Positions 19,601 to 53,957 of a stretch of DNA of 64,000 nt are shown here, piece by piece. How positions within the stretch are numbered: position 1 is the stretch's first letter; every line of letters begins with the position of its first letter. The position numbers were made by a program, and so were the translations under genes. This DNA is from a virus. Under the pieces are notes generated by a model, which was given only the letters and a program-made list of their open reading frames with translations, was not told the origin of the DNA and did no database searches. Where the stretch lies: positions 1 through 64,000 of IMG/VR virus record IMGVR_UViG_3300013195_000003, one strand, 5' to 3'.

Positions 19601-20231
19601 TGGCATCACCCATCTGTATGCTCATATGAAAAATCCTAGCAAACTTAAGGTTGGATCTCATTATCCAGCTGGAACACAGGTTGGACTGATGGGTTACTCT
19701 GGAAACACAGATCCAAAAGGTCCCGATGGCACTCACCTTCATTGGGAAACAGGAACTAATGAAGCTGATGTGGGTCGTTCTGGTAGTAGTCTGTTCGATC
19801 CACTGTCGAAGTATAGTAAGTTTGCTCCTTTTAAAGGGACTCCTGGTTCGGATGGTCCTGACAGTGATTACGATCCTGCTTCTGTGCAAAATCCTTCAGA
19901 ATATAGCGACCGTAGTTCTGGTTTATTAGTGTCTCCTGCCACTAATATGGTTAGAGATTTTGCGACAAATGTTCGTAATACTGGTGAAAGATTGCAGAAG
20001 AGTATGGAATCTCAGGGTATGGAATCTGGTCTTGCTGCCTCTCTTGGTGCAGCACTAGCACCATTGGGCAACCTGAAGCAGTCTCTGATGGAAGCTGTAA
20101 GTGCTGGACGCCCTGCGCCTGCTGTTGGAAGCGCTGATGGTGGTGGTGTGTCTAGTGATGGTGATGTTTCAATGTTCCCCACCTCCTCACCAGTTAGAGA
20201 TGGTGGTCACGTGTTCCAAGGAGATGTTTGA
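16695..20231 (+). CDS. tape-measure/hub protein with M23 peptidase domain
   Basis: 1178 residues. The N-terminal helical region (QLQAQSAQINAQKITNNLL) is followed by long Ala/Gly/Lys-rich helical sequence with several hydrophobic spans (VLGLGALTLGVAALVSAIDG, GAGAGVGTVVGGILGSALG, IIGIIAKLLLKTLAPAL), as in tape-measure proteins. Near the C-terminus (about 900-1055) is a LytM/M23 zinc endopeptidase: His922-x3-Asp926 (MHQGVDIA) and His1014-x-His1016 (THLHWETG), the canonical metal and catalytic set, so it can probably cut peptidoglycan cross-links during DNA entry. It sits between the gp26-side chaperone and the gp27-like protein; its stop overlaps the next ATG (TGATG). Confidence 0.85.
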   Translation: MASESKIQALLTVNSAQLQAQSAQINAQKITNNLLSDVLNAQIKTNGLLGAQNAISRKRVSADKFSAQENAIEKFRKKNVGKKSDIKLPGKINWKNVLGLGALTLGVAALVSAIDGISRGLAGFADRLDGIAQGLEDFEVKVRETAGKVRDFLTPIPGFSMFGLRQASMGVDAAKSGRYATTGRQVRGAVGKGIANAARGTANLTGKAIKGTGNLALDGVEAGLNRIAATNTATIADKLDDIAIRQGARARSTTLATGLTPKTLKDSLVSALKTTREKAAGFVSSTRQGAGRGLDAIKAAPGNLNTQRKLFMQGITGADDVSVLRTAGRPFPNVARGAGSLADEVGGFFRAGRGLRTGAQNAVSATRQAVSAATPQGVKQFIAVSKAAGPQAAILGVFDDIVKNLKNLKVKTITSLGSALKALPGQFATLGKSLKGFAGGIKTAVANFDLGKAAIQVSKVGSRGAQGLAKGAAGIVRGVPGAAGKLAETISRARAPMIGPKPPPGLLSRTGTMLKDGAGAAVKGTGSVLKRFPVLGSLISAGFGALEANTEEMERLRAENPEMTDEQIKAGLADGTLKKDKAKIIGRSAGAGAGAGVGTVVGGILGSALGPIGTAVGAAAGAWLGENVGKFLGEGFANTFKTFDWGKTFGPVIDTFKSLAGSITGALDAVAGAFGIKGDGEGGSGGFIVALKNIGRIIGIIAKLLLKTLAPALNLVMNTIKAVVDGITMLIKGISAVIGGVFNLVKGITSNPLMQVLPGVKELNALLSGGNGDIIGSISNFIDGNPQPAVDPAAGQNDPDLPQGGREPRKRKRGYGIGGGFNLFNPFSWGKSVNESIDNARDNANLGGNAFGYNNRYKNVTDPNMRRMLGLPEGGRTPKQKGRGGKGGRGHGIMSLGGRGRGIGGPAVRVSSHRGMRWGRMHQGVDIAPTGSKLHMPMYLPKPAKIVDKRREGGGDAGYGNSIYFTTSDGITHLYAHMKNPSKLKVGSHYPAGTQVGLMGYSGNTDPKGPDGTHLHWETGTNEADVGRSGSSLFDPLSKYSKFAPFKGTPGSDGPDSDYDPASVQNPSEYSDRSSGLLVSPATNMVRDFATNVRNTGERLQKSMESQGMESGLAASLGAALAPLGNLKQSLMEAVSAGRPAPAVGSADGGGVSSDGDVSMFPTSSPVRDGGHVFQGDV

Positions 20232-29750: not shown

Positions 29751-29754
29751 TCAT

Positions 29755-29826
29755 TCCTCTTTAGCTCAGCGGTAGAGCGAACGACTGTTAATCGTTTGGT
29801 CCCTGGTTCGATCCCAGGAAGGGGAG
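29755..29826 (+). tRNA. tRNA-Asn (GUU)
   Basis: 72 bases without CCA. Acceptor TCCTCTT pairs with AAGGGGA (29819-29825, one wobble), D-arm AGCTCAGCGGTAGAGC, anticodon loop TGTTAAT with anticodon GTT, T-arm GGTTCGATCCC. Intact. Confidence 0.95.
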
Positions 29827-29842
29827 TTTACTTTTTTCTGTT

Positions 29843-37533: not shown

Positions 37534-38342
37534 TGGCAAAAAATCTAGAAGAAATTCGCGGCTTTAAAAATGCCGCGATCGGTACAATTATGGCGTGGTC
37601 GGGGAGTAGTAGTGAACTCCCCACAGGATGGTTGAGCTGTGATGGTGCAGCTGTAAGTAACGGTGATTATCCTTTACTAAAAGAAGTCATCGGTTACACT
37701 TATGGCGGTTCCGATGCAGCGGGGCAATTTCAAGTTCCTAATTTAAATAATGGCAAAGTTCCTTTCCATAAAGGATCTACTTACAGCGGCAATGGTGGTA
37801 CCAATAGTGGAAGTACAACTTTGAATGCAGATTGGTCTATCAATGGTAGACCTAACAAGACTATTCAATATAGTTCTGCTACGGTTAATTCTAATGATGG
37901 TAATAATGCCTTTTCTAGGAATCTACACTTCCAGAGTAGAATGATGAGTCTTGAAAATCTTCCTGGTCACGGACATAACCCTAATATCAAGACTCTTAAC
38001 AGTCAGCATAACGGTAACCCTTCAGCTGAAGCAGCTGGCGGTGGTGGCAGCAGCAGTAATCGTCTTTTCCAGACTGCTAGATCTGTTCATTCTAGAGGTT
38101 CTCTTCCTAAAGTGGGTGGTCCTAATGATTGGGAAAATAACAGAATGACTAAACCACCTCAAGCTCACGGGCACGAAGCGATTAGAGTTACCATAGATAA
38201 AGGAAACTTGTCTTGTCCTGCATATAATGAGACTTACAATTCTGATAATATGTCGGTTACTAATTTTCCAAATCTAGGAAATGCTGCTCTTGATTTTACG
38301 CAACCATATCAGACTGCGGTCTATATCATCAAAGCATACTAA
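37533..38342 (+). CDS. tail-collar-domain fibre protein 1
   Basis: 269 residues. The N-terminal half is a phage tail collar domain: AAIGTIMAWSGSSSELPTGW, LSCDGAAVSNGDYPLLKEVI, GQFQVPNLNNGKVPFHKG. The second half has a His-rich GHGHNPNIKTLNSQHNG loop and Gly-Ser repeats, then NYETYNSDNMSVTNF-like strands, as in the receptor-binding tips of T4 gp12-like proteins. His pairs there could coordinate metal as in gp12 (inference). Stop overlap with the large structural gene (TAATGG) marks an operon. Confidence 0.78.
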   Translation: MAKNLEEIRGFKNAAIGTIMAWSGSSSELPTGWLSCDGAAVSNGDYPLLKEVIGYTYGGSDAAGQFQVPNLNNGKVPFHKGSTYSGNGGTNSGSTTLNADWSINGRPNKTIQYSSATVNSNDGNNAFSRNLHFQSRMMSLENLPGHGHNPNIKTLNSQHNGNPSAEAAGGGGSSSNRLFQTARSVHSRGSLPKVGGPNDWENNRMTKPPQAHGHEAIRVTIDKGNLSCPAYNETYNSDNMSVTNFPNLGNAALDFTQPYQTAVYIIKAY

Positions 38343-38345
38343 ATA
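38339..38345 (+). promoter_or_regulatory. late promoter box
   Basis: CTAAATA, overlapping the preceding stop codon, 20 bases before the ATG at 38365. Confidence 0.5.
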
Positions 38346-38364
38346 TCTCAGAGCATCATAGTCA

Positions 38365-39246
38365 ATGGCAAAAGTATATGCTAGTATTAGAGGAGCTCAG
38401 GGTGTTGCACCTGGAGTGATTGTTCCTTTTTCAAAGGAATGTCAGTCTGATGCAAATTTGATAGAACGTGTTCCTGGTGGTTACTTACGTTGTGATGGTA
38501 AAATATATCAAGCACGTGATTATCCTGGACTAGCTAAAGTCATTGGCGTCGGTCCATCTGGAGGTAATGGTATTAGAGCTTGTCCATTTCCGCCTGGACT
38601 GGCTGGGGCACAGTTGATTAATCCTACCTTAGATGCTGATGGTAATTTTACAGCTGGTAGTTTTGCAGTTCCTAACTTAGGTGCTAAAGTTTTACTTCCT
38701 AATACTTCGGCAGGTCAACAGTTTATCGGTAATAACGTTGGCGGCGGCATTTATGAAAGAGCTGGAGTAGGATATGTTGCGACTATTCTGCCAACTGTTA
38801 ATACAACCATATCTGGAAACATTATAGATTCCGAAAAAACTAATAGTATTACTGGTAACGGAACTTTCAGTTATCCAAATGGCAGTACTTCGTCAACAAA
38901 CTCTATTGATATCGGAAAAACTGCAGCTCACAATCACAATGATAATTGGTATCAATCTGATATGAGAGATGAGCATTTTGATGCGGATTTGCAAGATGAT
39001 GTTAGTATTGATATTATTCAATACGATATAAGTAACGTTACTATTACACATAATGGTTCAAATATTACTCACAACCATTCAATTTCTGGTGGTAGTTGCA
39101 GTAATCACTTGGAATATACCAGATCACAAACTACAATTAGTTTTTCTGGATCTAGTGCGACGGCGAATGTTACTGCCGATCCCAAAAAATCTTTAGATCA
39201 CCTCACAACACCGTACATCATCGTAGAGTACATCATTAAAATCTGA
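38365..39246 (+). CDS. tail-collar-like fibre protein 2
   Basis: 293 residues. A diverged collar domain: APGVIVPFSKECQSDANLIE, VPGGYLRCDGKIYQARDYPG, AGSFAVPNLGAKVLLPN. The C-terminal half is beta-rich with Asn/His/Thr repeats (TAHNHNDNWYQSD, NVTITHNGSNITHNHSISGG) that resemble metal-binding tip loops. Its last residues (TTPYIIVEYIIKI) follow the same end pattern as the neighbouring collar protein (QTAVYIIKAY). Same gene family and same strand order as 37533 and 39246; stop overlaps next ATG (TGATGG). Confidence 0.72.
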   Translation: MAKVYASIRGAQGVAPGVIVPFSKECQSDANLIERVPGGYLRCDGKIYQARDYPGLAKVIGVGPSGGNGIRACPFPPGLAGAQLINPTLDADGNFTAGSFAVPNLGAKVLLPNTSAGQQFIGNNVGGGIYERAGVGYVATILPTVNTTISGNIIDSEKTNSITGNGTFSYPNGSTSSTNSIDIGKTAAHNHNDNWYQSDMRDEHFDADLQDDVSIDIIQYDISNVTITHNGSNITHNHSISGGSCSNHLEYTRSQTTISFSGSSATANVTADPKKSLDHLTTPYIIVEYIIKI

Positions 39247-42155
39247 TGGCAAAGTATTACTCTGAAACGCAAGCATCCTGGACAGGAGTTCAAGTCGGCA
39301 CCATTTGTATGATGCCGAAGGACGATAATGGAGATTATTATGCTCCTGCAGGATGGCAGGAATGTAACGGTAGATCTCTGGATCCAAATGAATTTTATGC
39401 ACTGTATGAAATTATTGGTACCACGTACGGTGGTGATGCATCTGGTAGCACTTATGGTCAGCTCACTGGAACATTTAAGGTACCTGATTTAAGAGATAGA
39501 AAAGCTATTGGTACAGGTAGAATTAGACCAGAAGATGCTTCATCGCCACAATTAGAGGGTCATTTGGGTGGTCCGAGTGGTTATGGTACGAATGTATGTG
39601 GAACGTATGGCGGTAAAAACGTTATGCGTATCTCTGATGTTGCTAGTAGGGTTCAAGTTATTGGTAACCCTAGTATCACTCTAAATCCGACTAGTCCGAC
39701 ACTTAATACCAATTTGGTTGGAAATAGTTATCTACAAGTTGAGTCGGGATCTATTTCTAATTACACTGCACAAAATTATCCATCTCATACTCACGATCCT
39801 GGATTCACAGTTATTTCAACTCCTGGTTCAGGTAGTACCCACACTCTTGATAGAACTAGTCCTGGTGGTGGTAATACTGGAGTTAATTCAAACTCAAACA
39901 TACACAGCACATCAAATTGGCAAGATCTAGCGCAGGCAACAGCTGGGCACAGATCATTTACTAAGCAACCTCACTCGCACTGGATATCGTGGGATCCTAG
40001 TATTTGGCAAACTACTTCATATCATAGGTCTTTTGGTGATTCTATTGGTGCAGTTGCTGGCAACTCTCACTTGGGACAGACTTGGGAAGCTGAGCGCGGC
40101 GGTATTGAAGCGTGGAGAGCTAAATTTGTCAACGGAGACATCAACAATACTGGTCGATGTGGCGAAAATACTGGTGTTTGTACTATTCAAGCTAAGGCGA
40201 GTGGTGGATATGTTTCTTTGTCTACAGGCACTCAAACAGCAAATGCATCTCAAGTAAACTTCACTCTTGGTGTTACGGTTGGTCTGAATTCGGATCCTAC
40301 GATTCAACCAACTTATCAAGAAACAGCTTATATGATTTTCTTGGGCGTGAGTGCTACTGCATATACTGCTCCCCCACCGCCAGCTGATACTGGAGATAAC
40401 ATTCCTGGCGATTTTGGACCTTTAAACATCACTACTTCTACTGCATCTGGAACTGCATCGACATCTTTCCAGATTACAGATTGCGATGGTGTTTACAGTT
40501 TTAATATTATTGTAGAAAAAACTGGTGGAGCTGATGTGGGATCTACCCCAATTAACTTGCAGGGAACAGGTACTGCTACTAATAGTGGATATGTGGTCGG
40601 AGATACCGTTAATATGGTTCTTGAGGGTCCTGCTTTAGGCGGAGGAACTGCAAATTATACTATCAAAATTTATGATGGTACGGATTTGGTTAAAACTGGA
40701 TATGCTAATGTGACATATGCAGTTGCACCAGATGTTACTATCAGTGCACTCCCTGCTCTTGTTGAGCCTGGTAGTACTACACAGATTACTTTCTCTTCTC
40801 CTGGTGCGACAACTCTTGTCAGCTCTAACTTTGGAGCTACTGTTGCGACAGGTGAAACTGTTACTGTAACTCCAACTTCCAATACTACCACGTATACTGT
40901 TACTGTTAGTAATCCATATGGAAGTAATACTGCAACTGTTGATGTTCTTTTGAATGTTGGATCTCCACCAACTATTGCGTTGACAGCAACACCTTCTACA
41001 ATTGATTATGGTGGCACTACACGTATTCAATATGTTTCGCCAGATGCTACAGCTTTTGTTTCTTCTAACATTCCTGGTGTAGGATCGTCGAATATCCTCG
41101 AAGGTATCTATGATGTACCAGCTGGTACACTTACTGCAGATACCACATATAATGTGACCCTGAGTAATGCAAATGGAAGCACTACAGAAGAGGTTACAGT
41201 TACTGTTAATGCGCTTCCTTTACCAACAGTAACAATTACCTCAGATGTTACTGCTATCAATGTTGGCGCTGATCCTGGTGCTTCTATAGTGGTTGATATT
41301 AGTGGTGCTGATAGTGTTACCTATTCATCTTCTCCTGCATTTGCTGGATGGGATAATTTGTCTTCGACCACTTATACAAGCACGGCAGTATCACCACCTA
41401 CAACTACAACATTTACTGTTGCTGCTACAAATGCCTCAGGAACTACAACAGAGTATGTTGAGATTAGTGTGCAGCAAGCTCCTACTATCGTATTGTCTGC
41501 TACTCCTGCTGTTCTTGAGATTGGTACTGGTGCAACAAACCCCGTGTCTAGTTCTACATTGACCTGGACATCTACAGATGCCACTACTGTTGTTAGTAGT
41601 AATTTCGGTGCATCGACTGTTAGCGGTACAACCACAGTTTCGCCAACAGATACTACAACTTATGAAATTGAAGTGTCTGGTCCTGCACAACCTAATGCCG
41701 ATGCTAGTGTTATAGTTACTGTGAACTGTACTACTGGTACAGGTACAACTTCTGCAGGTTATGGCGATACATTCTACGGTTATCTGTTGTATAATGATGG
41801 AACGAAGAACGCATTTAATAATGGAAACAATCGTTACTTCGTTAGTGCTACCAATTCTTCGTATGCAAACACCACAGCTGTTGGTACATATACATACGGT
41901 CAAATTGGTACACAGATTATCACTAGTTTTGAGGCTATTCTTGACAGAAGACCTGAAGATGTTGCCTTCGATGGTTGGATGAATAGCTTTATCAATAACT
42001 TCGGTACCACATATAGCAACTTGACAGATCTGAACACTGCGATCTATAATGATGCTAATGGTATCGGAGTTGGTACCAGCAATGAAATTGCACTGAGAGC
42101 ATCGTACGGTGGTCTTGCAGGCAACTACAATGAATGTGATGTATTAATTGTCTAA
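39246..42155 (+). CDS. tail-collar protein 3 with Ig-like array and DUF-like C-terminus
   Basis: 969 residues. Collar domain at about 15-110 (VQVGTICMMPKDDNGDYYAP, GTFKVPDLRDRKAIGTG). A tip region follows to about 390, then about four Ig-like repeats (about 480-830) with the recurring TTLVSSNFGATVATGETVTV, TAFVSSNIPG, TTVVSSNFGA patterns and closing strands TTTYTVTVSN. The last ~130 residues (YFVSATNSSYANTTAVGTYT, ITSFEAILDRRPEDVAFDGW) resemble a DUF4214-type C-terminal region. Displayed Ig arrays on phage tails are thought to help adsorption. Directly followed by an oxygenase. Confidence 0.78.
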   Translation: MAKYYSETQASWTGVQVGTICMMPKDDNGDYYAPAGWQECNGRSLDPNEFYALYEIIGTTYGGDASGSTYGQLTGTFKVPDLRDRKAIGTGRIRPEDASSPQLEGHLGGPSGYGTNVCGTYGGKNVMRISDVASRVQVIGNPSITLNPTSPTLNTNLVGNSYLQVESGSISNYTAQNYPSHTHDPGFTVISTPGSGSTHTLDRTSPGGGNTGVNSNSNIHSTSNWQDLAQATAGHRSFTKQPHSHWISWDPSIWQTTSYHRSFGDSIGAVAGNSHLGQTWEAERGGIEAWRAKFVNGDINNTGRCGENTGVCTIQAKASGGYVSLSTGTQTANASQVNFTLGVTVGLNSDPTIQPTYQETAYMIFLGVSATAYTAPPPPADTGDNIPGDFGPLNITTSTASGTASTSFQITDCDGVYSFNIIVEKTGGADVGSTPINLQGTGTATNSGYVVGDTVNMVLEGPALGGGTANYTIKIYDGTDLVKTGYANVTYAVAPDVTISALPALVEPGSTTQITFSSPGATTLVSSNFGATVATGETVTVTPTSNTTTYTVTVSNPYGSNTATVDVLLNVGSPPTIALTATPSTIDYGGTTRIQYVSPDATAFVSSNIPGVGSSNILEGIYDVPAGTLTADTTYNVTLSNANGSTTEEVTVTVNALPLPTVTITSDVTAINVGADPGASIVVDISGADSVTYSSSPAFAGWDNLSSTTYTSTAVSPPTTTTFTVAATNASGTTTEYVEISVQQAPTIVLSATPAVLEIGTGATNPVSSSTLTWTSTDATTVVSSNFGASTVSGTTTVSPTDTTTYEIEVSGPAQPNADASVIVTVNCTTGTGTTSAGYGDTFYGYLLYNDGTKNAFNNGNNRYFVSATNSSYANTTAVGTYTYGQIGTQIITSFEAILDRRPEDVAFDGWMNSFINNFGTTYSNLTDLNTAIYNDANGIGVGTSNEIALRASYGGLAGNYNECDVLIV

Positions 42156-42806
42156 ATGAAACCTATTACACCTATTCGTCCTGCTGAGCTGATGCTTGAC
42201 GGGAATTTGACTAAATCAAACTTTGACGACTTCATTGGTGTTTGGGAAGGGTTTATGCCCAAAGCAGAATGCCAAAAATATATTAACTGGTTTGAAAATC
42301 TAGAGAGTAACTCTTGTGTCGTTCAACCTGGAATGGATCCTGGCGAAGTTGCCGATGGTAGATTCCAGTTTGAAATTGGTGGACTAGGGAGACTCGATAA
42401 GCAAACTTTAATTACACATCAAAACCCTGAACTGCAGCAGTGTTGCAATCAATATTTGATGTCAACCCTCGAACACTATATCTCTGAGTTTCCCCAGCTT
42501 GCGAATCAGTCATTGATTAGTAGCTGCATAAAAATGCAGAAGACTGAAGAAGGTGGTGGTTATCACGTCTGGCATTTTGAAGCAATGGGTCTCGATCATT
42601 CATCACGTTGTTTGGTTTGGGCGATTTATCTGAATGATGATTATGAAGGCGGCGAGACTGAGTTTTTGATGCAGAAACGTCGTGTAAATCCTCCCGCAGG
42701 AACTGTAGTTATTTGGCCAGCTGGGTTTACACACCCACACAGAGGAAACACGGTATTAAAAGGCAATAAATATATTTTGACTGGTTGGTATTATCACAAC
42801 TCGTAA
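42156..42806 (+). CDS. 2OG-Fe(II) oxygenase, His-x-Glu type
   Basis: 216 residues. The iron site reads YHVWHFEAMG, giving His140-x-Glu142 in place of the usual His-x-Asp, GGETEFLMQK follows, and PPAGTVVIWPAGFTHPHRGN supplies the distal His193 and nearby Arg. Related proteins in phage and bacterial prolyl-hydroxylase-like families have this arrangement. It directly follows the Ig-bearing collar gene (TAAATG). Substrate unknown; tail proteins or host factors are possible (inference). Confidence 0.78.
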   Translation: MKPITPIRPAELMLDGNLTKSNFDDFIGVWEGFMPKAECQKYINWFENLESNSCVVQPGMDPGEVADGRFQFEIGGLGRLDKQTLITHQNPELQQCCNQYLMSTLEHYISEFPQLANQSLISSCIKMQKTEEGGGYHVWHFEAMGLDHSSRCLVWAIYLNDDYEGGETEFLMQKRRVNPPAGTVVIWPAGFTHPHRGNTVLKGNKYILTGWYYHNS

Positions 42807-42807
42807 A

Positions 42808-43458
42808 ATGGCAAGAGATTTCGCAAAAGCTGACGTAGTTATTAACAATGTTCAAAAGGTGATTGGTACCTACCACGCTCCTTATGGAACTACTCTGTTC
42901 TTCCCGATTGAAGAGGAAGAGTACAATACATTAGTGGCACCTTTGCTGGTTGGTATTTGGGATGTTCCCAATGTTGATCAGCTTGAGATGTTTTATTATT
43001 GGAAATCTAGTGATGATGGTGATGGTGTAATTGAACCATCTTTTTACATCTCCGAAAACACGGAGCTCACTGATGAGATTCCTAGGAACTATAATAAGAC
43101 ACCTAACAATGGTGGTCCTAGTAGAGAAGAAGGCGATAAAATTTACAATGCTCTTAGAACAAGATTAGAGCAACTTAAAACTGAATATGAAGCAGCAGAA
43201 GCAGCCAAAATAGAGAATACTTGGAAGGAATGGAGTTATCGTGAGGATGGCACACCTTTAAATATCAAATCTCTGAAGTCTGGAAGAACTACACGTTTAA
43301 ATGATTCTGACTGGACACAGATGCCAGATTCTCCTCTCTCCGAAGATGCTAAGACAGCTTGGGCGGCATATCGTCAAGAACTGAGAGACCTTCCTGCAGC
43401 ACAAGCTGATCCTTACGACCCTGATAATTTCACTGGTTGGCCAACTAGACCTTCTTGA
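42808..43458 (+). CDS. tail fibre assembly chaperone-like protein
   Basis: 216 residues. The C-terminal third matches the phage tail assembly chaperone family (PF16778-like): ending in TRLNDSDWTQMPDSPLSED, then WAAYRQELRDLPAAQADPYD and FTGWPTRPS. The N-terminal ~100 residues are unique, with a hydrophobic/aromatic stretch (EMFYYWKSSDD). Such proteins fold and trimerise fibre proteins. It lies among fibre genes, 1 base after the oxygenase stop, and is expressed with them. Confidence 0.7.
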   Translation: MARDFAKADVVINNVQKVIGTYHAPYGTTLFFPIEEEEYNTLVAPLLVGIWDVPNVDQLEMFYYWKSSDDGDGVIEPSFYISENTELTDEIPRNYNKTPNNGGPSREEGDKIYNALRTRLEQLKTEYEAAEAAKIENTWKEWSYREDGTPLNIKSLKSGRTTRLNDSDWTQMPDSPLSEDAKTAWAAYRQELRDLPAAQADPYDPDNFTGWPTRPS

Positions 43459-43461
43459 TTT

Positions 43462-44136
43462 ATGTTTTATCGTTATGAACTTCTGAATCACGTCAAAGTA
43501 AATCATATAACAAATGTATTTGACACTAGTATTTGGGAAGATGGATCGAAATCTGGTAGTAAAGACAAAAAACTGAAAAATAATCGCCAGCTTTGTAGAG
43601 ACTCTGCCTTAGCGTGCTGGAGAATATTTGAAGAAGATTTTGATAATCATCCAATAGTTTATGCATCTTTAGCTACTTCTGCATACACATTGCCACACTT
43701 TTGTAAGTATGGTATCGGATGCCATTACGATTGGCACGTCGATCACACTCATATGGGCGATGGAATCGGAATACGAGCTGATGTTAGTACGACGGTATTT
43801 CTTAATGACCCTGTAGAATATGAAGGTGGGGTGTTAGAGCTTAAATTTGGAACGGAAACTCTAGAAATTAAATTGCCAGCTGGATGGGCGTTTAGTTATC
43901 CTACTGGAATAAAACACAGGGTTACGCCTATTACATCTGGAGAGAGAAGAGTAGCAGTATTGTGGTCTCAGTCACGATTCAAAGAACCTATGGATCGTAT
44001 GGCATATGCAAATATTAGAGAAACATCATTAAAATATAATATTACCAGTCCAGACCATCCTGGTTGGGAGTTGCAAAATGCCCTGGACAATGCCGAAATG
44101 CATTTACTTAGAACTAAAGGCGATCTGAGATCATAA
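43462..44136 (+). CDS. PKHD-type 2OG-Fe(II) hydroxylase
   Basis: 224 residues. Full PiuC/YbiX-like set: YGIGCHYDWHVDHTHMGDG gives His92-x-Asp94, then TTVFLNDPVEYEGGVLELKF, the distal His152 in TGIKHRVTPITSGER, and Arg163 in RRVAVLWSQSRF for 2-oxoglutarate. YbiX/PKHD-type enzymes are oxidoreductases of unknown substrate; cyanophages carry several. Length is near the ~225 residues of bacterial PKHD hydroxylases. Ends at the late box for the protease gene. Confidence 0.88.
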   Translation: MFYRYELLNHVKVNHITNVFDTSIWEDGSKSGSKDKKLKNNRQLCRDSALACWRIFEEDFDNHPIVYASLATSAYTLPHFCKYGIGCHYDWHVDHTHMGDGIGIRADVSTTVFLNDPVEYEGGVLELKFGTETLEIKLPAGWAFSYPTGIKHRVTPITSGERRVAVLWSQSRFKEPMDRMAYANIRETSLKYNITSPDHPGWELQNALDNAEMHLLRTKGDLRS

Positions 44137-44139
44137 ATA
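44133..44139 (+). promoter_or_regulatory. late promoter box
   Basis: CATAAATA with ATAAATA at 44133-44139, 35 bases before the subtilase ATG at 44174. It overlaps the preceding stop. Confidence 0.6.
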
Positions 44140-44173: not shown

Positions 44174-46795
44174 ATGAGCAATAGAATTATTGCGAGAATT
44201 TCTAAGGAAAATCAAGCTGGCGCTGTTATCGAAAGAGCAAAACAGCGTTTTACTTCACTAAAAAACACCGAAGACTTGAGTAGAGTCAAGACGGTGTTTC
44301 TTGACTTCGATTCAAAAGATGATAATTTCATCAATATACTGAAGGGAGACGAATTCCCTGAGGTCATTGGTGCTCTGTGGGATCGAGAAACTTTTATTGG
44401 TGGAGTCGAAACTCTAGAGGAACAAGTCAGTCCTGAAGGTGATGTTGTAGGAATTTTTAATTCTTTCGATAGACAAGCTGCAGCTGTTGCGGCATCTACT
44501 GAGGAAGATTCTGTTAACCTTATTGCACAGCAAATTAAACCCTCTGATTATGGTAATGTAATCCCGTATACTGTTGGTGCTGGCACTACATACTCAGTTA
44601 CTGCAACTATTACCAATACTTCTAACGGTCCTAAATTTTACATTAATGGTAGTTTTGAGGCACCTGATCTCACTTTCCTTTTTCCTGGTCACGAATTAAT
44701 TATTAATGTTGCTGATAATAGCAACTTCGGATATACACTTGCTTTTTCCGAAACACCTGATGGTACACATAATGGTGGTACTGAGTATAATGTTGGTGTA
44801 TCTAGAACCAACACTCCTGGTACAACTAATGCCGAAGTTCGTTTAGCAGTTTCGCAAACAACTCCTAAGCAGCTTTACATCTACGCCCAAGAGACTCCGC
44901 GAGTGGGTCTGCGTGGTGGCGGATTCTTGAATGCTACCGATCACGGTAAAGTTGCAATGTTTAGTAAGTGGTACTTAGCACGTATCACACAACAGCAGAA
45001 TGGATTGGATTATGGTCTGTTCTCTTACACTGAGCACGGTGACGGTGTTGACTGCTATATTATTGACTCTGGTGTCCGTGGTGCATCACGTCCTACATCT
45101 GCAACAGGTGCTAACCTTCACCCTGAATTGTTCCACCCTGATTATGCAAGTGATCTGAATGATATTTCTAATCAGAACGAATATAGAGTATACGAAGTTC
45201 CTGGGTATAACTCTGGTTACACTGTTAATGGTGAGGCAGACTCTAACGAAGATGACAATGGTCACGGCACAGAGTGCGCCATTATGGTTGGTGGTTTGCA
45301 ACACGGTGTTGCACGTAAGACTAGATTTTATGCTCTGAAAACTCAGGGCAGTAATGGTAGTGGACTGTTGTCCAGCTATGTGTTTGCAATCCTTGCAATC
45401 ATTAATCACAATGATCCGAACCATCCTAACTGGAAAGGTAACAACAGACCTGCTGTGGTGAACGCATCTGTTGGCGTTAATCTTCCTTCAGAGGTTTCTC
45501 CTTTCGTTCCTCAAAACGAACCTGGATTTGATAGTGGTCCATATGAAGCTGATACAGCGATGGATGACTATGAAAATCTTGCTGTAGAGAACGGTATTGT
45601 ATACGTTCGCTCTGCAGGTAACGGTTTTGGTTATAACTTCGCTTACGGTGGTTTCCAAGCTAAGTTCAACCCTGGTCCCCGTACTGCTGGTCCTCAGGAC
45701 TACAGATATAATATGGAGGGTATCAGCGATAAGATTTCTGTCGGTGCTACTGCCTTCGATAATACATTCTCTGGTTTCTCGAACTATGGTCAGGGCGTTA
45801 CTACCAGTGCGCCTGGTGAATCTATCTACTGCCCACATTACTACTGGAACACTAACACTCAGTACAGCTCTGTCACCAGTACTTTCTATGCATACATTAG
45901 AGGTACTTCATTCTCTGGTCCTTTGACTGCTGGTGTTGTTTGTCAGTTCCTTGGTAAGAAAGGTTATCAGAACAGAACAACCTATGAAGGTAAGTCTGTC
46001 CCTAAGCTTGCTAAAGAATGGCTTCGTAGAAGTGTTGATTGGGATTATGAAAGAGATCAGTCACCTGTTGGCGAAGAGTACGGTGGTGGTAGTGTCAATT
46101 TGTATCCTACTGATGACATCGATGAGATTACTCTTGACGGTGTTAATACCTTTATTAATGTTCAGGCTGGTAGTAATGAAGTTACGATTGGTCTTGGTAG
46201 CGAATTTAGTCGCTTCAATCCTGTTTTGGGTGATAAGATCCAGTTCCGTATTCCTGAAGCAATTCCTTCTACGGATGTCATCACCGATATTTGGGTTACC
46301 AGTGATGGATCTCCAACATCAGCATATTATCAATCTGGTGGTCTGTTGAACGTTGTCACTGATAACGATCCTTCTCCTGGTCTTGCTGGTACATTCCCTT
46401 CTGGTGGTACGACTGGTTATGTTTCCACATTGTCTATTCAGAATCAAGGTTCTGGATATACAGTCGTTCCTTCAGTTTCGCTGAATGGTGGCGGTGGTGT
46501 TGGTGCTACAGCAACAGCTGACATTACATTAACTGGTGGTAACGTTACCAGTATTAACGTTGATCAGTCTGGTTCTGGATATACTTCGGCACCTACAGTT
46601 GCAATTGTCGGTGATGGTCAAGGTGCAACAGCTGAAGCTACTATCGCATTGACTGGTGGTGGTGTTGATAGTGTTACTGTTACTAATGGTGGTTCTGGTT
46701 ATAACCCTCTGAACTTGCCTGCTGTTACATTTACTGGCGGTGGGGGGAGGGATGCTACTGCAACAGCAACAGTTGTTGGTGGTATTTTTACTTAA
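44174..46795 (+). CDS. virion-type subtilisin-family serine protease (first part of a broken giant gene)
   Basis: 873 residues up to an in-frame TAA. Complete S8 catalytic set: Asp298 in DCYIIDSGV, His364 in DDNGHGTECA, oxyanion Asn483 in VRSAGNGF, Ser579 in RGTSFSGPLTAG. The first ~100 residues (IIARISKENQAGAVIERAKQ) could be a propeptide, followed by one cupredoxin-like beta domain without metal ligands (about 135-240). After the protease come Gly-rich repeats (GSGYTVVPSVSLNGGGGVGA, GSGYTSAPTVAIVGDGQG, GSGYNPLNLPAVTF). The stop at 46793-46795 falls in such a repeat where the next copy reads GAA. A late box precedes it. It is likely the N-terminal part of one gene with 46740-53957. Confidence 0.85.
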   Translation: MSNRIIARISKENQAGAVIERAKQRFTSLKNTEDLSRVKTVFLDFDSKDDNFINILKGDEFPEVIGALWDRETFIGGVETLEEQVSPEGDVVGIFNSFDRQAAAVAASTEEDSVNLIAQQIKPSDYGNVIPYTVGAGTTYSVTATITNTSNGPKFYINGSFEAPDLTFLFPGHELIINVADNSNFGYTLAFSETPDGTHNGGTEYNVGVSRTNTPGTTNAEVRLAVSQTTPKQLYIYAQETPRVGLRGGGFLNATDHGKVAMFSKWYLARITQQQNGLDYGLFSYTEHGDGVDCYIIDSGVRGASRPTSATGANLHPELFHPDYASDLNDISNQNEYRVYEVPGYNSGYTVNGEADSNEDDNGHGTECAIMVGGLQHGVARKTRFYALKTQGSNGSGLLSSYVFAILAIINHNDPNHPNWKGNNRPAVVNASVGVNLPSEVSPFVPQNEPGFDSGPYEADTAMDDYENLAVENGIVYVRSAGNGFGYNFAYGGFQAKFNPGPRTAGPQDYRYNMEGISDKISVGATAFDNTFSGFSNYGQGVTTSAPGESIYCPHYYWNTNTQYSSVTSTFYAYIRGTSFSGPLTAGVVCQFLGKKGYQNRTTYEGKSVPKLAKEWLRRSVDWDYERDQSPVGEEYGGGSVNLYPTDDIDEITLDGVNTFINVQAGSNEVTIGLGSEFSRFNPVLGDKIQFRIPEAIPSTDVITDIWVTSDGSPTSAYYQSGGLLNVVTDNDPSPGLAGTFPSGGTTGYVSTLSIQNQGSGYTVVPSVSLNGGGGVGATATADITLTGGNVTSINVDQSGSGYTSAPTVAIVGDGQGATAEATIALTGGGVDSVTVTNGGSGYNPLNLPAVTFTGGGGRDATATATVVGGIFT

Positions 46796-49700
46796 ATTAC
46801 TATCAACAATCCTGGTTCTGGGTATTCTGAGGGACCTACAGGGTAGTGATGCTACTGCAACAGCAACAGTTGTTGATGGTATTATTACTGAAATTACTAT
46901 CAACAATCCTGGTTCTGGATATTCTGAGGCACCTACAGTTGGTATTGCACAATCTGCTCCTCCGAATCAGGGTAACGTTGTACACGCACCTGATAGTGAA
47001 TTTGTATCGGGTGGCGGATCTACAACCTCTGCCTCGCTGAATCAAACCACTCGTCTTCTGACTGTGGTTGCTGATAACTTACCTCAACCTGCACTGTATG
47101 GTGCTTTCCCGAATCCTAATAATAGCAATGCTATTACGGGTCAGTCTTATAACCATACTTGGGTCTATCGTGGCGGTAGAAACATTAGTGACGAGACTCC
47201 TACAGCAACAACTGATCAGGATTCTATTGGTATGGCTCTGAATGGTATTCAGCTCCGTCATTATTCGCACGGTCTTAATACTGACCTGCCTGATGGCACT
47301 GGTTGCCCGACTGGTTATACCTTCAATAAGATCTATAATTCCGCAGCTTTTGGTGCTGATAATGGTAGTGGTGTGACAGATTCTTCTGGTGTCTATCACT
47401 ATACCACTGGCAACTTCCTCGTCAATAGTTGGAAAGGTTCTAGTACAACCTATACTGTTACTGTCAGTGATCCTGGATCTGGTAATAAGTATTACTTAAA
47501 TGGTGGATTAACACCGAACATTATTCTGACTGAGGGTAACACATACTACTTTGATCAAAGTGATGCATCCAATGGTGGTTATCCTTTCAGAGTTTCTGCA
47601 ACACAAGATGGCGTTCATACACAAGGTGGTGTAGCTTACGAAATTGGTGTTCGTTATCAGGGCACTCCTGGTGATGGTCAACCTGGCACTGGTTTATATC
47701 TGCAAGTTCAACCTGATGCTCCTAACCTTTTCTACTATTGTTCATTGTATAGTGGTTACGGAAATGCTGCATCGGTTACTACAACTAATAACACAGCTGC
47801 ACTGCCCTCTCACACGACATCTGATATTATTAATGCTACCCATCACTCTCCTGTGATTGGTTATGCATATGATGGATATCCAATTTATGGTCCTATTGGT
47901 TATGCAAGTCCTGGTTCTCCGACCACACTTGCAAGAATGCAATCTTCTTATGGTTTGAAGACGCAGCGCGATGGTCAGCAATATGCTGGTTCTACTTATA
48001 ACTGGAACGTTACTACTGATGATAACTTAGATTATGATTTTACTGGGGAATCTAGTGGTACTGATGTTGCAATCACTGCTAACATCGGTGATAACCTTGT
48101 GTTCAACGTCAATGCTTCTTACACCACTGGTGGTGGCGGCGGTAGCACACCGAATACCTACAACTTAGTTGTTACTGCATCTAGCTTCAGTGATTATACA
48201 GTTTCTGGTTCCGACAGAACTGGTAACATCAATGGTTCTGACCCTGCATTGACATTCTACGAAGGTGATACTATCAACTTCACGGTGTCTGCATCTGGTC
48301 ACCCGTTCTACCTGAAGACACAAGCTGGTACTGGTACTGGCAACCAGATCTCTGGTGTTACTAACCAAGGTACTGAGTCTGGTACTGTTTCTTGGACTCC
48401 TGGTGCTGGTTCTGCTGGTACTTACTACTACCAGTGTGAGTATCACAGTAGTATGGTCGGTACGATCACTATCCAGTCTTCTGGTGGTGGCGGTGGTACA
48501 ACTGTGACCCACCCGATGTGGATCCAGACAGTTCCTGCTCCTTACAACCCGACTCAGGTTGTTGGTGCTGTGACTAACAATGGTAGTCACAATGCTACTA
48601 TTCTGTGGAACACAACAACTGCTGCAGCTGGTACTTACTACTATGTGTCTGAGAATGCTCAGGCAATGACGGGTACGATTACATTGTCCGAACCTGTTGG
48701 TTATGCACCATCTACGACTGCATATCCTATGGGATCATTCGTGGAAGATTACGAATATGTTGGAAATGGTACTCTAGATCGCCGCAATGGTAGATTCTGC
48801 GTAACTCCTGAATTCCCAGGTGGTACTTATGCATACTTTATGACATTTGATGCATCTGCTAATCCGCAGTTCCCATATCTTTTAGGCGATCAATACTATG
48901 GTACAGCAGTAACTGAGTCTGATACTGCACCTCAAAACCCACTGTTTGAACAACCTGCATCAGGTAGTTGTACAATTGGTACCCAGATTGGTGTGGTGGA
49001 TGCTGTTAATGTTATTGAACAAGGTGTTGGTTATACATACGCCAATATCGAGTTTAGTGGTGGCGGCGGCGTTGGTGCACAAGCATCATCTAATATCTCG
49101 GTGCTGGATGGTTATGTGTCTGGTCTGACATTGGTTGATCAAGGTACAGATTATACATCTGCTCCTACTGTTGATATCGATCCTCCAAACGTTGGTGGTG
49201 GTACTCAGGCAACAGGTGTTGCACAGATTGCCATTACTGCTGGTAACCCGAATAGTATCGACAAGCAAAGCTTCAACCAGAACTTTAATTGGAGAGGTGG
49301 TACAAACTATGCTACAGATACTATTGAAGCGAAACCACTGCGCAGTGTAAATCCCTTCGCTATTTCTAGCACGGGCGCATTTATTTACCATTATTCTTAT
49401 GAGAGTGGTCCTACTCCTGGTTGGACATACAATGCTGTTACTAACGGTAACCTTGTAGGCGAAGATGCTTACGGTGGTTTCCCCAACACTAGTAATGTTT
49501 ATGGATACAACTCTAGTAAGCTGTTAGGTGCATATGGTTCTGTTGCAATTGCAGGTTCTAATTATCTCTCTAGTTCTTATTTTGATCTCGGATATCGCAC
49601 CGTCAATTATCTTGTCACTACCGCTGTAAAGACTGAAACCAGTCCTTACTACAACCAAGGTGGTACTCATCAGTATATGCTCCGTGGTGATACGTTTACT

Positions 49701-52700
49701 ACTCCGACTGAGCAACCTCAGATTGATTTTACTAGAGGTAACACGTATATCTTTGATTTAAGTGATGCTAGTAATGATGGTCATCCGATGTACTTCTCTA
49801 CTACCGATGATGGTATCTTCGGTGGTGGTGTTCGCTTCGGCAATGGTATTACTTATCGTTTGGATGGTGCTTCTGTTGATGCAGTTACATTCACTAACAA
49901 CTTTGATAGCGCTACCACTCGTACAATTACGATAGTTGTTCCTCAAGATTGTCCTGCACTTCTGTACTATGTTTGTGTGAATCATCAGAGAATGGGTAAT
50001 CAGATTGTTGTTAACAGCAACATTCAAGGTGATTACAAGCGTCATCCTGATGGTCACTCCAAGATTCTTGGTATGACGTTTGATGGATATCCTCTCTATG
50101 GTCCTTATGGTTACTCTGATCGTGATGATAGCAGCAGTGCTGTCATTCGTATGAAGCCTGCATATCTCCTGAAGCTGGAGAATAGAGTTCCTGATATGTT
50201 CGGTTCGCGTCCTGCGCAAGGTACATATCCTCTCGGAAGCTTTATCGAAGATTTTGAATACCAAGGTGGTGTTGAGGAAGATAACGTTACCGACGTTACT
50301 TTCACTGTACAGGCAGCAACTGCATCGCAAACTGGTAGCGGTGGTCGTTACTATATCTCTGGTGGTTTGTTAACTGGTAGCGCTGAGAAACCAGCTTTCA
50401 ACTTTAAGAAAGGTAGAAAGTACATCTTTAATCTTTCTGATGGTTCTAACGAAACGCACGCTATGCTGTTCTCCACAAGTGGAGATGCACAAGCACAGGG
50501 TTGGCACGTGGCAGGTTCTAGTGTGGGTGATGCAAATGCTGTCTATGGTGCTGGTGTCGTCTATAAGTTAGAAAATGTTGAGGTTGATTATGCTACATAT
50601 GTCGCTGGTTTTGATGCTGCAACTCAGAGAAGCATTGAGTATACTCCTACATCAAATGCACCTCACGTTCTGTACTATTTCTGTTACAACCATCCCAATA
50701 TGGGAGAGCGTATCATTATTGGTGATCTGGACAGCAGAAATGGTCGCTATTGTGTGACACCTGACTATCCGAATGGTACTTACGCATACTTTATTACTGA
50801 GGATAATAATGGTAACCCTGCCTATCCTTATGTGATGGGTGATAATTACTACTCTGATCCTGTCTTCCCTGGTGGATCTGCTACCGAAGGTTCTTCCTAT
50901 GTCTATGACATTGGTGGTCTGCAATTCAACGTGATGCAGAGATATTGGCACGCCATTACGGATGTCAATGCAGGAACTGGTACGATTATGATCGAACCTG
51001 ACGCAGCTCAGTTCACTGGTGTTCAAAATGAAGTTGGTGGCAATCTGATCAAGATTGCAAACCTTGAGGGAACAAAGCAGCGTAGTGATGGTGTTCAACG
51101 TTGGATCGATCAGAACCCTGTTGGTAACAAATTGTACTTCCAGACTGAAGCTCAGGAAGATGCTGGTAGTGGTGAGGGTACTGAGATCATCTATCTGCCT
51201 GTAGATAAGGGTGTTGATGATGGATCTATGAGAGGTTTATTCTCTCCTTATATTGATCTGCTGACCACGTGGTACACACCTGCTGGTGCTCTCGGCACCT
51301 ACAATATCGGTGATACCGTCAATCTGCAACTGGGTGTCTCGTTCCTTAGAACATATGCTGCGGAGACTATTCTTGATCGCGATTACTCTCTGACTGGTGA
51401 CTCTATTGCTAACACTGGTTTGTCATTTGACACTGAAACAGGTGTCTTAAGTGGTATTTTGGTTAATAATACCACTCTTGACCTCACACTGACTGTCGAA
51501 GAGAACATCTCTGGTCAGACTCAGACCTATACTATTCAGCTCACAAACACTACAGTTACTGTACAGAATGTTTCTCTGAAGACCTCTGGTGTTGCTAGAG
51601 CGATTGATTATGCTGCAGTTACTAAGAAAGCTGGACAACCTAATGATGATGCTATCTGGGCAGAGAATGCCTGGTACTCGCGTCCTATGAATTATAAGTC
51701 ATTCTCTGTTCTTGCTTATCAAACAGGTTACGAGAATACTAACTTTGAGTTTATTCCTCAGTGGCAGATCTTTAAAAATAAGGGTGGTGGAACACTGTGG
51801 TATAACTTGAATGAGTTCTCTACTGGTCCTGTTGCAGCTGGTCAGTCTTGCCAGATTGAAGAGGGCGATTGGTTTGAGAACAACTATGATGCTCGTGATC
51901 AGTTCTACGTTTATAATGAAACGTTTGAAGATGTTACTGGACACGAAATTGCTATTTCTTACCTCATTGCTAACAAGTGGTGGAACTATGATCAAGACTT
52001 CTTCCGTTGTAAGCTGCGTTATCGCTTGATCTTTAACTTAGTTGCTAGCGGTAATGATTATGCTGTTGTGGTTAACCAATCTGGTTCCACCGTGTTTGAA
52101 GTTCCTAAGGGTGCTACATATCGTTTCGATGTAAGTGATGCATCCTGGGCGGGTAAGAACCTTGAACTTAGAGAGTCTCCAACGGGCAGTGCATATATCG
52201 GATCTAATGTCAGACGTTATGGTACTCCTGGCACTCCTGGTGCTTGGGTTGATCTTATCGTCGATGAATCGCATCCTGGTTCTGTCTTCTACTTTGGGCA
52301 GACTGGCGGTAGTACATTTGCTTCGCAGCACATTGACTTCACCTCTGTGTTTACTGCGCTGACATCCAATACTGTACAACTTACAGTCAATAATATTCCT
52401 AACGTTCCTGCTCAGCCCCTGCTGACAATGGAATCTGGCGCTACATCTATCACTGCAAATACTTACTCTGTGGTGACTGAGTATGGCGCACTGACACACT
52501 TCCCGAATGAGCTTGCCTATCAATCTTCTGGTAGGTCTCCTAAGGATGGTCGTTATCCTGTTCGCCTGCTCTGCACTGACCAAAACATTGAGTTCAACTG
52601 GTACCGTAAGCTGTACAGTTACGACACCAGTACTGGTGTTAAGTCCTATAACTGGGATACTGTTGCCAATAGTGCCAGCACATATGTGCCCCTGAATTCT

Positions 52701-53957
52701 CCTCACTACAGATCCAGAAGAGATTATGGTAATAGCTTGACCAACTATCACTCTGCTTGCGCACTTGATGGTGCTAGCATCTATCAAGAAAACTACATTA
52801 ATTTGAATGAGGAATTCCCTCTTCGTGTGAACTATGGTGGTCCTCAGATTGAGATTCCTATTCAATCTTCCTCTACATTGAATCCTCCTCTGGCAAATAA
52901 TGGTAGTGTGCTTCGTGTCACTGACCTGCCTTGTAAGGGTGTTCCTCACGGCGAGAATGATCCTTACTCTTATCAGGTTGTGATTGGAAACGGTGCATCT
53001 CTGTCCTCTGTGTCTAACGAGATCAGCGTGATTCCTAACCCACCTGAACTGGGTATGTGGTGGTATGAGTATGATAATGGTTGGTCTGGTACCGTTTCTA
53101 ACGGTTACCTGCGTCACGATCAAGGCTTCGTTGATACTACTCTGACCTGTGGTGATTACTTTGGTAACGTTCTGATTCGCTCCTTCGTTATTGACGTGGG
53201 TCCTGCACCTCTGAGTGCACTGCCTTACATTGATATCAACACACTGCAAGTACAAGATTACTATAAGGGTGCACAGAACTTTACTGTCAGTAACAACCAG
53301 ACTCAGGATGTAACAGTTTCCTACACTATTGATGCTGGTCAGTTTACTTGGAGATTGCGTCTGATTAATGAGTTCCCCTATATGGAGAACGTGGACGGTG
53401 GCACTAGAACTGTGTACACAGTAAATAATCCCACCCACGCTAATGCTCCTACAATTGTTAACACTGGCGACTTCAGCACTTATAGTGGTCAATTAGCAGC
53501 TGCTACTGGTGTTCTTCGTGAGTGTCCCTTCCGTGGTGACACCAACATTAACCTGCCCGTTGACTTCTCGGTGAAGAATGATATTCAACCCGCTATCTTC
53601 CCTGCACGTGGTACTCAAAAGATCTACACACTGTGGGTGGAGCTGGTTGAGTCTCCGTTCGATCTGGTTGACTTGATTAACCTTGTAGCGGTTGCTGATC
53701 CTTGTCAGGATCACACCTATGACTTCGCATACACCTCTAATGGTGCTTGTATTACTCCGTCTAATGACTACTTCTGCAACTTCATCAAACCTCTGCGTGA
53801 TCGTAACCACGCTGAACAACCCATTATCGGTATGGAAGGTGTGGCACAGATCAAGGTAACTGATGGTATTTCGCCAAGAACATTGGACTTCCAAGTCCCT
53901 GCTCCTTGGCCTGTCCTTTACAGCTACCTGGGCGATTGTAACCCCACTTGCGCATAA
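46740..53957 (+). CDS. giant adhesin-like protein with tandem cupredoxin-like and YHYH modules (second part of the broken gene)
   Basis: The coding signal runs from about 46842 to 53957 (about 2370 residues); the first ~35 codons after 46740 are off-frame repeat sequence. Domains in order: end of a GxGY repeat; a degenerate cupredoxin-like domain (nt 47410-47770); YHYH-type module GYAYDGYPIYGPIGY (47850-48060); intact cupredoxin-like domain with HPFYLKT and YYYQCEYHSSM (48165-48477); a partial degenerate copy (YYYVSENAQAM); RRNGRFCVTPEFPGGTYAYF; a GxGY repeat; intact cupredoxin-like domains ending YYVCVNHQRM (about 49980) and YYFCYNHPNM (about 50690) around another YHYH unit; then long beta sequence and a degenerate copy near 52030-52330. 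No transmembrane segment. It is probably a tail fibre or tail-associated protein. Confidence 0.8.
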   Translation: MGGGMLLQQQQLLVVFLLKLLSTILVLGILRDLQGSDATATATVVDGIITEITINNPGSGYSEAPTVGIAQSAPPNQGNVVHAPDSEFVSGGGSTTSASLNQTTRLLTVVADNLPQPALYGAFPNPNNSNAITGQSYNHTWVYRGGRNISDETPTATTDQDSIGMALNGIQLRHYSHGLNTDLPDGTGCPTGYTFNKIYNSAAFGADNGSGVTDSSGVYHYTTGNFLVNSWKGSSTTYTVTVSDPGSGNKYYLNGGLTPNIILTEGNTYYFDQSDASNGGYPFRVSATQDGVHTQGGVAYEIGVRYQGTPGDGQPGTGLYLQVQPDAPNLFYYCSLYSGYGNAASVTTTNNTAALPSHTTSDIINATHHSPVIGYAYDGYPIYGPIGYASPGSPTTLARMQSSYGLKTQRDGQQYAGSTYNWNVTTDDNLDYDFTGESSGTDVAITANIGDNLVFNVNASYTTGGGGGSTPNTYNLVVTASSFSDYTVSGSDRTGNINGSDPALTFYEGDTINFTVSASGHPFYLKTQAGTGTGNQISGVTNQGTESGTVSWTPGAGSAGTYYYQCEYHSSMVGTITIQSSGGGGGTTVTHPMWIQTVPAPYNPTQVVGAVTNNGSHNATILWNTTTAAAGTYYYVSENAQAMTGTITLSEPVGYAPSTTAYPMGSFVEDYEYVGNGTLDRRNGRFCVTPEFPGGTYAYFMTFDASANPQFPYLLGDQYYGTAVTESDTAPQNPLFEQPASGSCTIGTQIGVVDAVNVIEQGVGYTYANIEFSGGGGVGAQASSNISVLDGYVSGLTLVDQGTDYTSAPTVDIDPPNVGGGTQATGVAQIAITAGNPNSIDKQSFNQNFNWRGGTNYATDTIEAKPLRSVNPFAISSTGAFIYHYSYESGPTPGWTYNAVTNGNLVGEDAYGGFPNTSNVYGYNSSKLLGAYGSVAIAGSNYLSSSYFDLGYRTVNYLVTTAVKTETSPYYNQGGTHQYMLRGDTFTTPTEQPQIDFTRGNTYIFDLSDASNDGHPMYFSTTDDGIFGGGVRFGNGITYRLDGASVDAVTFTNNFDSATTRTITIVVPQDCPALLYYVCVNHQRMGNQIVVNSNIQGDYKRHPDGHSKILGMTFDGYPLYGPYGYSDRDDSSSAVIRMKPAYLLKLENRVPDMFGSRPAQGTYPLGSFIEDFEYQGGVEEDNVTDVTFTVQAATASQTGSGGRYYISGGLLTGSAEKPAFNFKKGRKYIFNLSDGSNETHAMLFSTSGDAQAQGWHVAGSSVGDANAVYGAGVVYKLENVEVDYATYVAGFDAATQRSIEYTPTSNAPHVLYYFCYNHPNMGERIIIGDLDSRNGRYCVTPDYPNGTYAYFITEDNNGNPAYPYVMGDNYYSDPVFPGGSATEGSSYVYDIGGLQFNVMQRYWHAITDVNAGTGTIMIEPDAAQFTGVQNEVGGNLIKIANLEGTKQRSDGVQRWIDQNPVGNKLYFQTEAQEDAGSGEGTEIIYLPVDKGVDDGSMRGLFSPYIDLLTTWYTPAGALGTYNIGDTVNLQLGVSFLRTYAAETILDRDYSLTGDSIANTGLSFDTETGVLSGILVNNTTLDLTLTVEENISGQTQTYTIQLTNTTVTVQNVSLKTSGVARAIDYAAVTKKAGQPNDDAIWAENAWYSRPMNYKSFSVLAYQTGYENTNFEFIPQWQIFKNKGGGTLWYNLNEFSTGPVAAGQSCQIEEGDWFENNYDARDQFYVYNETFEDVTGHEIAISYLIANKWWNYDQDFFRCKLRYRLIFNLVASGNDYAVVVNQSGSTVFEVPKGATYRFDVSDASWAGKNLELRESPTGSAYIGSNVRRYGTPGTPGAWVDLIVDESHPGSVFYFGQTGGSTFASQHIDFTSVFTALTSNTVQLTVNNIPNVPAQPLLTMESGATSITANTYSVVTEYGALTHFPNELAYQSSGRSPKDGRYPVRLLCTDQNIEFNWYRKLYSYDTSTGVKSYNWDTVANSASTYVPLNSPHYRSRRDYGNSLTNYHSACALDGASIYQENYINLNEEFPLRVNYGGPQIEIPIQSSSTLNPPLANNGSVLRVTDLPCKGVPHGENDPYSYQVVIGNGASLSSVSNEISVIPNPPELGMWWYEYDNGWSGTVSNGYLRHDQGFVDTTLTCGDYFGNVLIRSFVIDVGPAPLSALPYIDINTLQVQDYYKGAQNFTVSNNQTQDVTVSYTIDAGQFTWRLRLINEFPYMENVDGGTRTVYTVNNPTHANAPTIVNTGDFSTYSGQLAAATGVLRECPFRGDTNINLPVDFSVKNDIQPAIFPARGTQKIYTLWVELVESPFDLVDLINLVAVADPCQDHTYDFAYTSNGACITPSNDYFCNFIKPLRDRNHAEQPIIGMEGVAQIKVTDGISPRTLDFQVPAPWPVLYSYLGDCNPTCA
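46751..46944 (+). repeat. 97-base tandem repeat at the protease/adhesin junction
   Basis: Copies 46751-46847 and 46848-46944 both begin GATGCTACTGCAACAGCAAC and agree except at about five positions. Copy 1 has ACTTAA where copy 2 has ACTGAA (stop versus Glu). 97 bases is not a multiple of three, so the frame changes from one copy to the next. Confidence 0.85.

Follow-up and report, generated by a model that had tools for sequence, protein, structure and literature searches.

The window analysed here is the 64,000-nucleotide stretch at positions 1–64,000 of the uncultivated IMG/VR virus record IMGVR_UViG_3300013195_000003 (full record 105,079 bases), and it carries on its plus strand a gene whose product begins with a subtilisin-family (S8) protease. 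The gene encodes a real, conserved and probably active subtilase of an already annotated family, for which we infer a function here; the best reading is that it supplies the enzymatic N-terminus of a giant structural protein (about 3230 amino acids in close relatives) that a T4-like cyanophage makes late. The assignment to a T4-like cyanophage is our own reading of the tail and baseplate gene content, as family searches found baseplate hub/tail lysozyme, baseplate wedge, short tail fibre, tail collar and tail-fibre assembly families encoded in the record. An S8 peptidase is already listed in phages P-HM1/P-HM2 and annotated in S-BM3; added here are the propeptide-like N-terminus, the upstream late motif across relatives and the longer architecture of the window lineage. 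The features of this gene, its late motif and its flanking genes all lie on the plus strand.

The catalytic domain occupies about residues 265–620 (44966–46033) and matches Pfam PF00082 (Peptidase_S8) over residues 298–596 with an E value of 9e-24 and 84.7 bits against a curated cut-off of 21.8, at which a chance match was rejected. A preliminary description, made from the letters of the DNA alone, had placed four active-site residues in S8 motifs, and all four stand where it put them: catalytic Asp298 (codon 45065–45067), catalytic His364 (45263–45265), oxyanion-hole Asn483 (45620–45622) and catalytic Ser579 (45908–45910), in the order D-H-N-S and within DSG, GHGT, SAGN and GTSFS, which we take to be S8-type motifs. 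Across 85 aligned rows, including the window and ranging down to 33% identity to it (P-HM1 is counted twice, also as L059, and some loci such as L010/L011 and L017/L020 are near-identical), 84 retain D, H and N and all 85 retain S. The row of L061, the exception, breaks off at an in-frame stop close to the His motif, and the four motifs can be read in its frame around that stop. The best sequence match in the PDB is aqualysin I (4dzt, E 2.7e-13), with keratinase (5wsl) and proteinase K (1ic6) also matched; these are secreted enzymes of cells that share catalytic residues and fold with the window domain, whereas the window enzyme heads a giant phage protein. An NCBIfam search gave weak matches only, far under cut-off. 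The ratio of non-synonymous to synonymous differences per site (pN/pS), calculated for 21 pairs of seven window-lineage sequences and comparative only, with synonymous sites near saturation (median pS 0.54–0.61), was 0.25 in both the propeptide and the catalytic domain, 0.70 in the linker, 0.46 in the cupredoxin-like domain and 0.37 in the following segment. Judged from these sequence comparisons, the domain is very probably an active subtilase.

An N-terminal propeptide-like domain, unnoticed in the preliminary description, covers residues 1–75 (44174–44398) with a predicted beta-alpha-beta-beta-alpha-beta order. In an AlphaFold2 model of residues 1–715, residues 1–70 form a predicted fold with a block predicted local distance difference test (pLDDT) score of 84–91, similar when modelled alone, and Asp70 (D70) is invariant in 40 of 40 N-termini. 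When the model was compared with PDB chains, eight among the matches listed aligned from model residue 1–3 over 283–319 residues, all of them including a propeptide: ProN-Tk-SP (Z 22.6, 294 residues, root-mean-square deviation 2.8), five PCSK9 entries with prodomain (Z 21.4–22.1, 283–287 residues), unprocessed pro-subtilisin E (Z 22.0, 304 residues) and Pro-SA-subtilisin (Z 19.7, 319 residues). The other 42 chains among the matches listed aligned over 222–248 residues. Z differences below 1 are treated as ties, and the argument lies in the extra residues aligned at the N-terminus, because these point to a propeptide predicted to be docked on the catalytic domain as in pro-subtilisins; an enzyme with such an N-terminus would probably be made as a zymogen. 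On the strength of the model, we consider a zymogen with a true propeptide likely.

The extent first given for the gene, 44174–46795, corresponds to a real open reading frame (ORF) of 873 amino acids with an ATG start, but it does not end where the gene ends in relatives. The complete gene is a single frame of 3227–3238 codons in all nine complete relatives of the window lineage, so that the 873 residues represent its front quarter. These nine belong to 16 close loci (L006–L021), 73–84% identical over the query region, the remaining seven of which are truncated by the contig end; a search for near-identical DNA of the window among phages gave no match. In the window, the frame ends inside an imperfect tandem duplication of 97 bp (46744–46937, copies 90/97 identical) and stops within a glycine-rich repeat, which is carried onward in another frame by the ORF 46740–53957, in relatives the later part of this gene; the GTG at the listed start of that ORF is probably not a gene start. 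The contig as it reads, with two overlapping ORFs, would fit a genuine split into two proteins, a programmed frameshift or a phase switch. However, the duplication is missing from all 14 close relatives compared (the other two of the 16 end earlier), all nine complete genes run in one frame, 97 is not a multiple of 3, and the first copy has G at five of its seven substitutions, which we read as a sign of poor reads. We thus regard a genuine split as very improbable and the duplication as probably an assembly error from poor-quality reads; a programmed frameshift at 46744–46937 in particular was rejected, as relatives without the duplication have the gene in one frame. Frame damage also occurs outside this contig, namely a frame change around 3826 of L034, in the C-terminal part of the protease giant, and the in-frame stop of L061 (around 3654–4682), just past the His motif.

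Great length is usual in the family. Outside the window lineage, 49 of 52 complete frames encode 1684–2085 amino acids, and overall 58 of 61 complete frames reach at least 1684. The remaining three comprise L034 and L061, both broken frames of the long type, and L043 (9293–12649), which is complete at 1118 amino acids, lacks the long C-terminal repeats and a downstream gp13, and is the sole truly short form.

The fusion to repeats described earlier is present as glycine-rich GSGYT-type repeats at about residues 749–867 (46418–46774), which are common to cyanophage baseplate wedge and other virion structural proteins. Further on, the ORF 46740–53957 contains YHYH and cupredoxin-type modules, with three C..H..M motifs and five matched stretches of YHYH, a domain of phage tail/baseplate proteins. 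Among phage records, 469 match this ORF, of which 456 are Synechococcus, Prochlorococcus or 'Cyanophage'; the labels among the matches listed are baseplate wedge or hypothetical. YHYH has been predicted to be a tail-associated metal-dependent hydrolase (PMC7824862, available part); the words subtilisin and subtilase never occur in the available main text of that paper, so that neither term is used there for an S8 fusion. The cupredoxin-like domain proposed in the preliminary description is supported at residues 139–240 (44588–44893) by strand prediction and by alignment with relatives' segments that bear the cupredoxin-type C..H..M motif. At this domain, the copper-type motif is present in 57 of 85 rows and absent from the window, L006–L021, L022–L028, L030, L043 and S-BM3, L061 being not scorable. 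The plastocyanin/azurin family was matched above its curated cut-off elsewhere in the giant proteins of L017 and L026.

Late expression is suggested by the motif ATAAATA at 44133–44139, 41 nt before the ATG, which is the late box reported earlier and overlaps TATAAAT, the T4 late promoter sequence quoted in the available part of PMC3037559. Of 70 relatives with enough upstream flank (L061 excluded), 51 have the motif in the 80 nt preceding the protease gene, compared with 57 of 4000 random 80-nt windows. Within the window, 7 of 12 plus-strand copies lie no more than 60 nt before one of 36 hand-chosen gene starts.

The tail-gene surroundings noted at the outset were confirmed by family searches and by the gene order of the window lineage. 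Upstream lie tail-fibre/tail-collar genes spanning 31054–42155 (31054–37533, 37533–38342, 38365–39246 and 39246–42155), a 2-oxoglutarate (2OG)-Fe(II) oxygenase (42156–42806), a tail assembly chaperone (42808–43458) and an oxygenase-like gene (43462–44136), the last labelled from our own reading of its sequence, outside the family searches; all are conserved in the window lineage. The two oxygenase-type genes flank the chaperone directly before the protease gene. Downstream, residues 20–186 of the next gene product (53982–55928) match positions 1658–1830 of phrog_27200, its C-terminal end. In a neighbourhood comparison of 18 of the 85 loci, the block short tail fibre, collar, oxygenase, chaperone, oxygenase-like gene, protease giant and 53982-type gene was kept in all eight window-lineage loci, some of which are near-identical.

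Other lineages place the gene differently. Among the 61 loci with enough downstream flank, gp13 follows within 900 nt in 49, a 53982-type gene in 10 and neither in two, one being L034 with its early end by broken frame; none of 10 window-lineage loci has gp13 within this distance. In this lineage, G001 and G002 have gp13 at another place, and a search of G000 and G005, which may be fragments, did not turn it up. A T4_neck-protein profile run against the window's own record gave no match, and the control gave none either. In G001, gp13 stands behind a different protein of 1792 amino acids. S-ShM2 gives no S8 match, and there gp13 is preceded by a 6.7-kb gene for a 'YadA domain-containing structural protein'. 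On these two cases we rejected the view that the protease fills the gp13 slot in every lineage; in T4 itself wac stands before gene 13, an order given no weight here. The S8 giant thus stands at sites that a fibre-like protein takes up in another cyanophage, which favours a virion role but falls short of showing one. The check for homologues beside the same adhesin, proposed in the preliminary description, came out mixed: neighbours are conserved within a lineage but differ between lineages, and a fixed partnership with one adhesin was accordingly rejected. Elsewhere in the window, a 1178-aa protein near tail genes (16695–20231) matches endolysin and peptidase families over residues 908–1051, and three tRNA genes are present (Thr-TGT 9674–9747, Leu-TAA 27252–27339 and Asn-GTT 29754–29827).

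IMG/VR stretches encoding a relative numbered 117 with the window as query and 211 with a family alignment; the family is thus not rare. Detailed analysis covered the best 80 of the 117, the family-alignment scan kept 80 of the 211, and alignment A2 retained 43 of 73 candidate loci after near-duplicate removal. A scan of genome contigs gave two matches, which look like phage DNA within cell assemblies. One (L086, QCLS01000003.1), a 189,106-base contig in the assembly of a Prochlorococcus single cell, AG-418-C09, encodes a protease of 2076 aa and, next to it downstream, a 269-aa ORF that matches gp13 in size; it is probably an infecting phage. The other (L087, PBPE01000110.1), a 7-kb contig that bears the protease, comes from the bin of a Dehalococcoidia metagenome-assembled genome.

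The S8 region is present in the annotated phages P-HM1, P-HM2, MED4-213 and S-BM3, the first three with two entries each, and two Acinetobacter-labelled phage records match it more weakly. The window protein matches phrog_27200 over residues 173–720 (E 1.5e-106) and P-HM1 over residues 4–692 in tblastn (E 1e-81). The proteins of P-HM1 (PHM1_104), P-HM2 (PHM2_106) and MED4-213 (CPMG_00018), which make up the S8 peptidase family T4-GC519/phrog_27200, share with the window protein the propeptide-like N-terminus, the cupredoxin-like domain, the S8 domain with the same four residues and a long beta-rich C-terminus. They differ in length (1827–1840 versus about 3230 amino acids in the window lineage), are 33–42% identical to the window protein in the matched part, and their gene lies directly before gp13, unlike that of the window lineage. 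The P-HM1 protein gave weak Ig-type matches and no YHYH match, whereas the window lineage has YHYH, and the C-terminal end of phrog_27200 is a separate gene in the window (the 53982–55928 gene above). The 'peptidase S8' of S-BM3 (SBM3_00202, 2648 aa; L004 11737–19683) resembles the window protein in its four residues, YHYH match and similar start, but its cupredoxin-type C..H..M segment lies inside the S8 domain, between VVNVS and RSAGN, instead of before it.

To the preliminary description, no characterised cyanophage tail subtilase was known. No experimental study of a cyanophage S8 protease was indeed found in the literature searched, in which subscription journals are thinly covered, but the protein had been named in 2010, when Sullivan et al. 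(PMC3037559, available part) listed 'an S8 peptidase (T4-GC518)' among 70 P-HM1/P-HM2 genes not in other sequenced cyanophages, and it is annotated in S-BM3. GenBank notes give the S8 gene as T4-GC 519 and its small neighbour as 518, off by one from that text. The available part of the P-HM2 expression paper (PMC5082946) makes no mention of peptidase, protease or baseplate. In the available parts of two further papers, subtilisin names the tail-sheath domain PF04984 (PMC12796325), and a peptidase S8/S53 is reported in a prophage region of Geitlerinema (PMC5177637).

Taken as a whole, we give about even chances to a late-made, self-activating protease that a giant beta-rich fibre anchors to the tail or neck and that trims cyanobacterial surface proteins. 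The protease would be made in the cytoplasm as an inactive zymogen, the propeptide would help it fold, and the enzyme would then cut itself free of the propeptide while staying tethered via its C-terminal fibre to tail or neck. On contact, it may trim surface proteins of the cyanobacterium so that the tail reaches the outer membrane. From gene content and architecture, the protein is rather likely to be part of the virion. That the main substrate is the host surface rather than phage proteins is an evenly balanced proposition, drawn from the fusion of the enzyme to a long fibre-like protein. A more specific version, in which a virion-borne self-activating subtilase with metal-binding YHYH/cupredoxin modules shaves picocyanobacterial protein coats during adsorption, is put forward tentatively.

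Several observations weigh against this interpretation. The S8 profile is not universal in the family: 41 of 44 members match it at E 1, and neither S-BM3 nor L026 does at E 0.01. As to the zymogen, the I9 propeptide family is absent from the Pfam matches of the 44 members (E 1), an N-terminal profile searched against PDB sequences gave two matches (E 0.35 and 1.2) that were not propeptides, and, when modelled by itself, the domain resembles many generic ferredoxin-like folds, the 50 matches listed including no propeptide; the full model is weak, with a mean pLDDT of 62 and a catalytic core partly below 50. The protease frame is broken in the window's own contig, and the short L043 means that the very long tail is not obligatory. 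The 13 ATAAATA sites in the window are not above chance (29 of 100 shuffles reach that number), so that their placement alone is informative. The gene location differs between lineages, among tail genes in some and just before neck gene 13 in others. The virion proteomes in the available part of PMC3037559 (S-SM1, S-PM2 and Syn9) are from phages that, according to the paper, are without this S8 peptidase, and no virion proteome of an S8-bearing phage was found in the literature searched. The gene also follows phage lineage and not host, and many WH7803 phages gave no S8 match in tblastn; the protease is therefore not needed to enter that host.

Three other roles may be set against a tethered, surface-trimming enzyme. 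The S8 fold could be catalytically idle and serve as a scaffold or binding module in the fibre, since phage fibres can reuse enzyme folds and no activity data were found. Yet the catalytic Asp, His and Ser and the oxyanion Asn persist almost without exception at identities down to 33%, and the catalytic domain is under strong constraint; we hold an idle fold to be highly unlikely. An intracellular late protease, acting outside the virion to degrade host proteins or aid lysis, would suit the late motif upstream and the lack of a signal peptide by eye. It accords poorly with the tail or neck gene position and with the fusion to repeats and YHYH and cupredoxin-type modules shared with baseplate/tail proteins, and appears unlikely, if somewhat less so than the idle fold.

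A stronger competitor is a maturation protease, comparable to a specialised morphogenesis protease, that during assembly would cleave its own chain and the giant fibres or adhesins nearby, whether in cis or in trans, and may then be released or carried as a passenger. The propeptide-like N-terminus predicts at least one self-cleavage, the dependence on phage lineage rather than host fits such a role, and giants are encoded nearby, such as the 11-kb 'YapH' gene in P-HM1/P-HM2 and an 8.6-kb gene in S-BM3. A comparison of jumbo phages proposes virion proteins as the usual targets of well-conserved phage peptidases (PMC7824862, available part). However, a processing enzyme needs no long beta-rich tail, which nearly all complete frames possess, and the neighbouring giants differ between lineages. 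Maturation is thus a possible but less probable main role, and trimming of the host surface is slightly favoured over it.

The phage tail enzymes known so far mostly cut sugars or peptidoglycan. If a subtilase does sit on a cyanophage fibre, either the surface proteins of picocyanobacteria would be a barrier worth an enzyme, or giant fibres would be matured by a dedicated protease. Both readings are directly testable in cultured P-HM2 (host MED4) and S-BM3 (host WH7803), because homologues with intact active sites occur there. A protease-armed fibre, if true, would be the proteolytic counterpart of polysaccharide-depolymerase tailspikes, in at least two cyanophage lineages.

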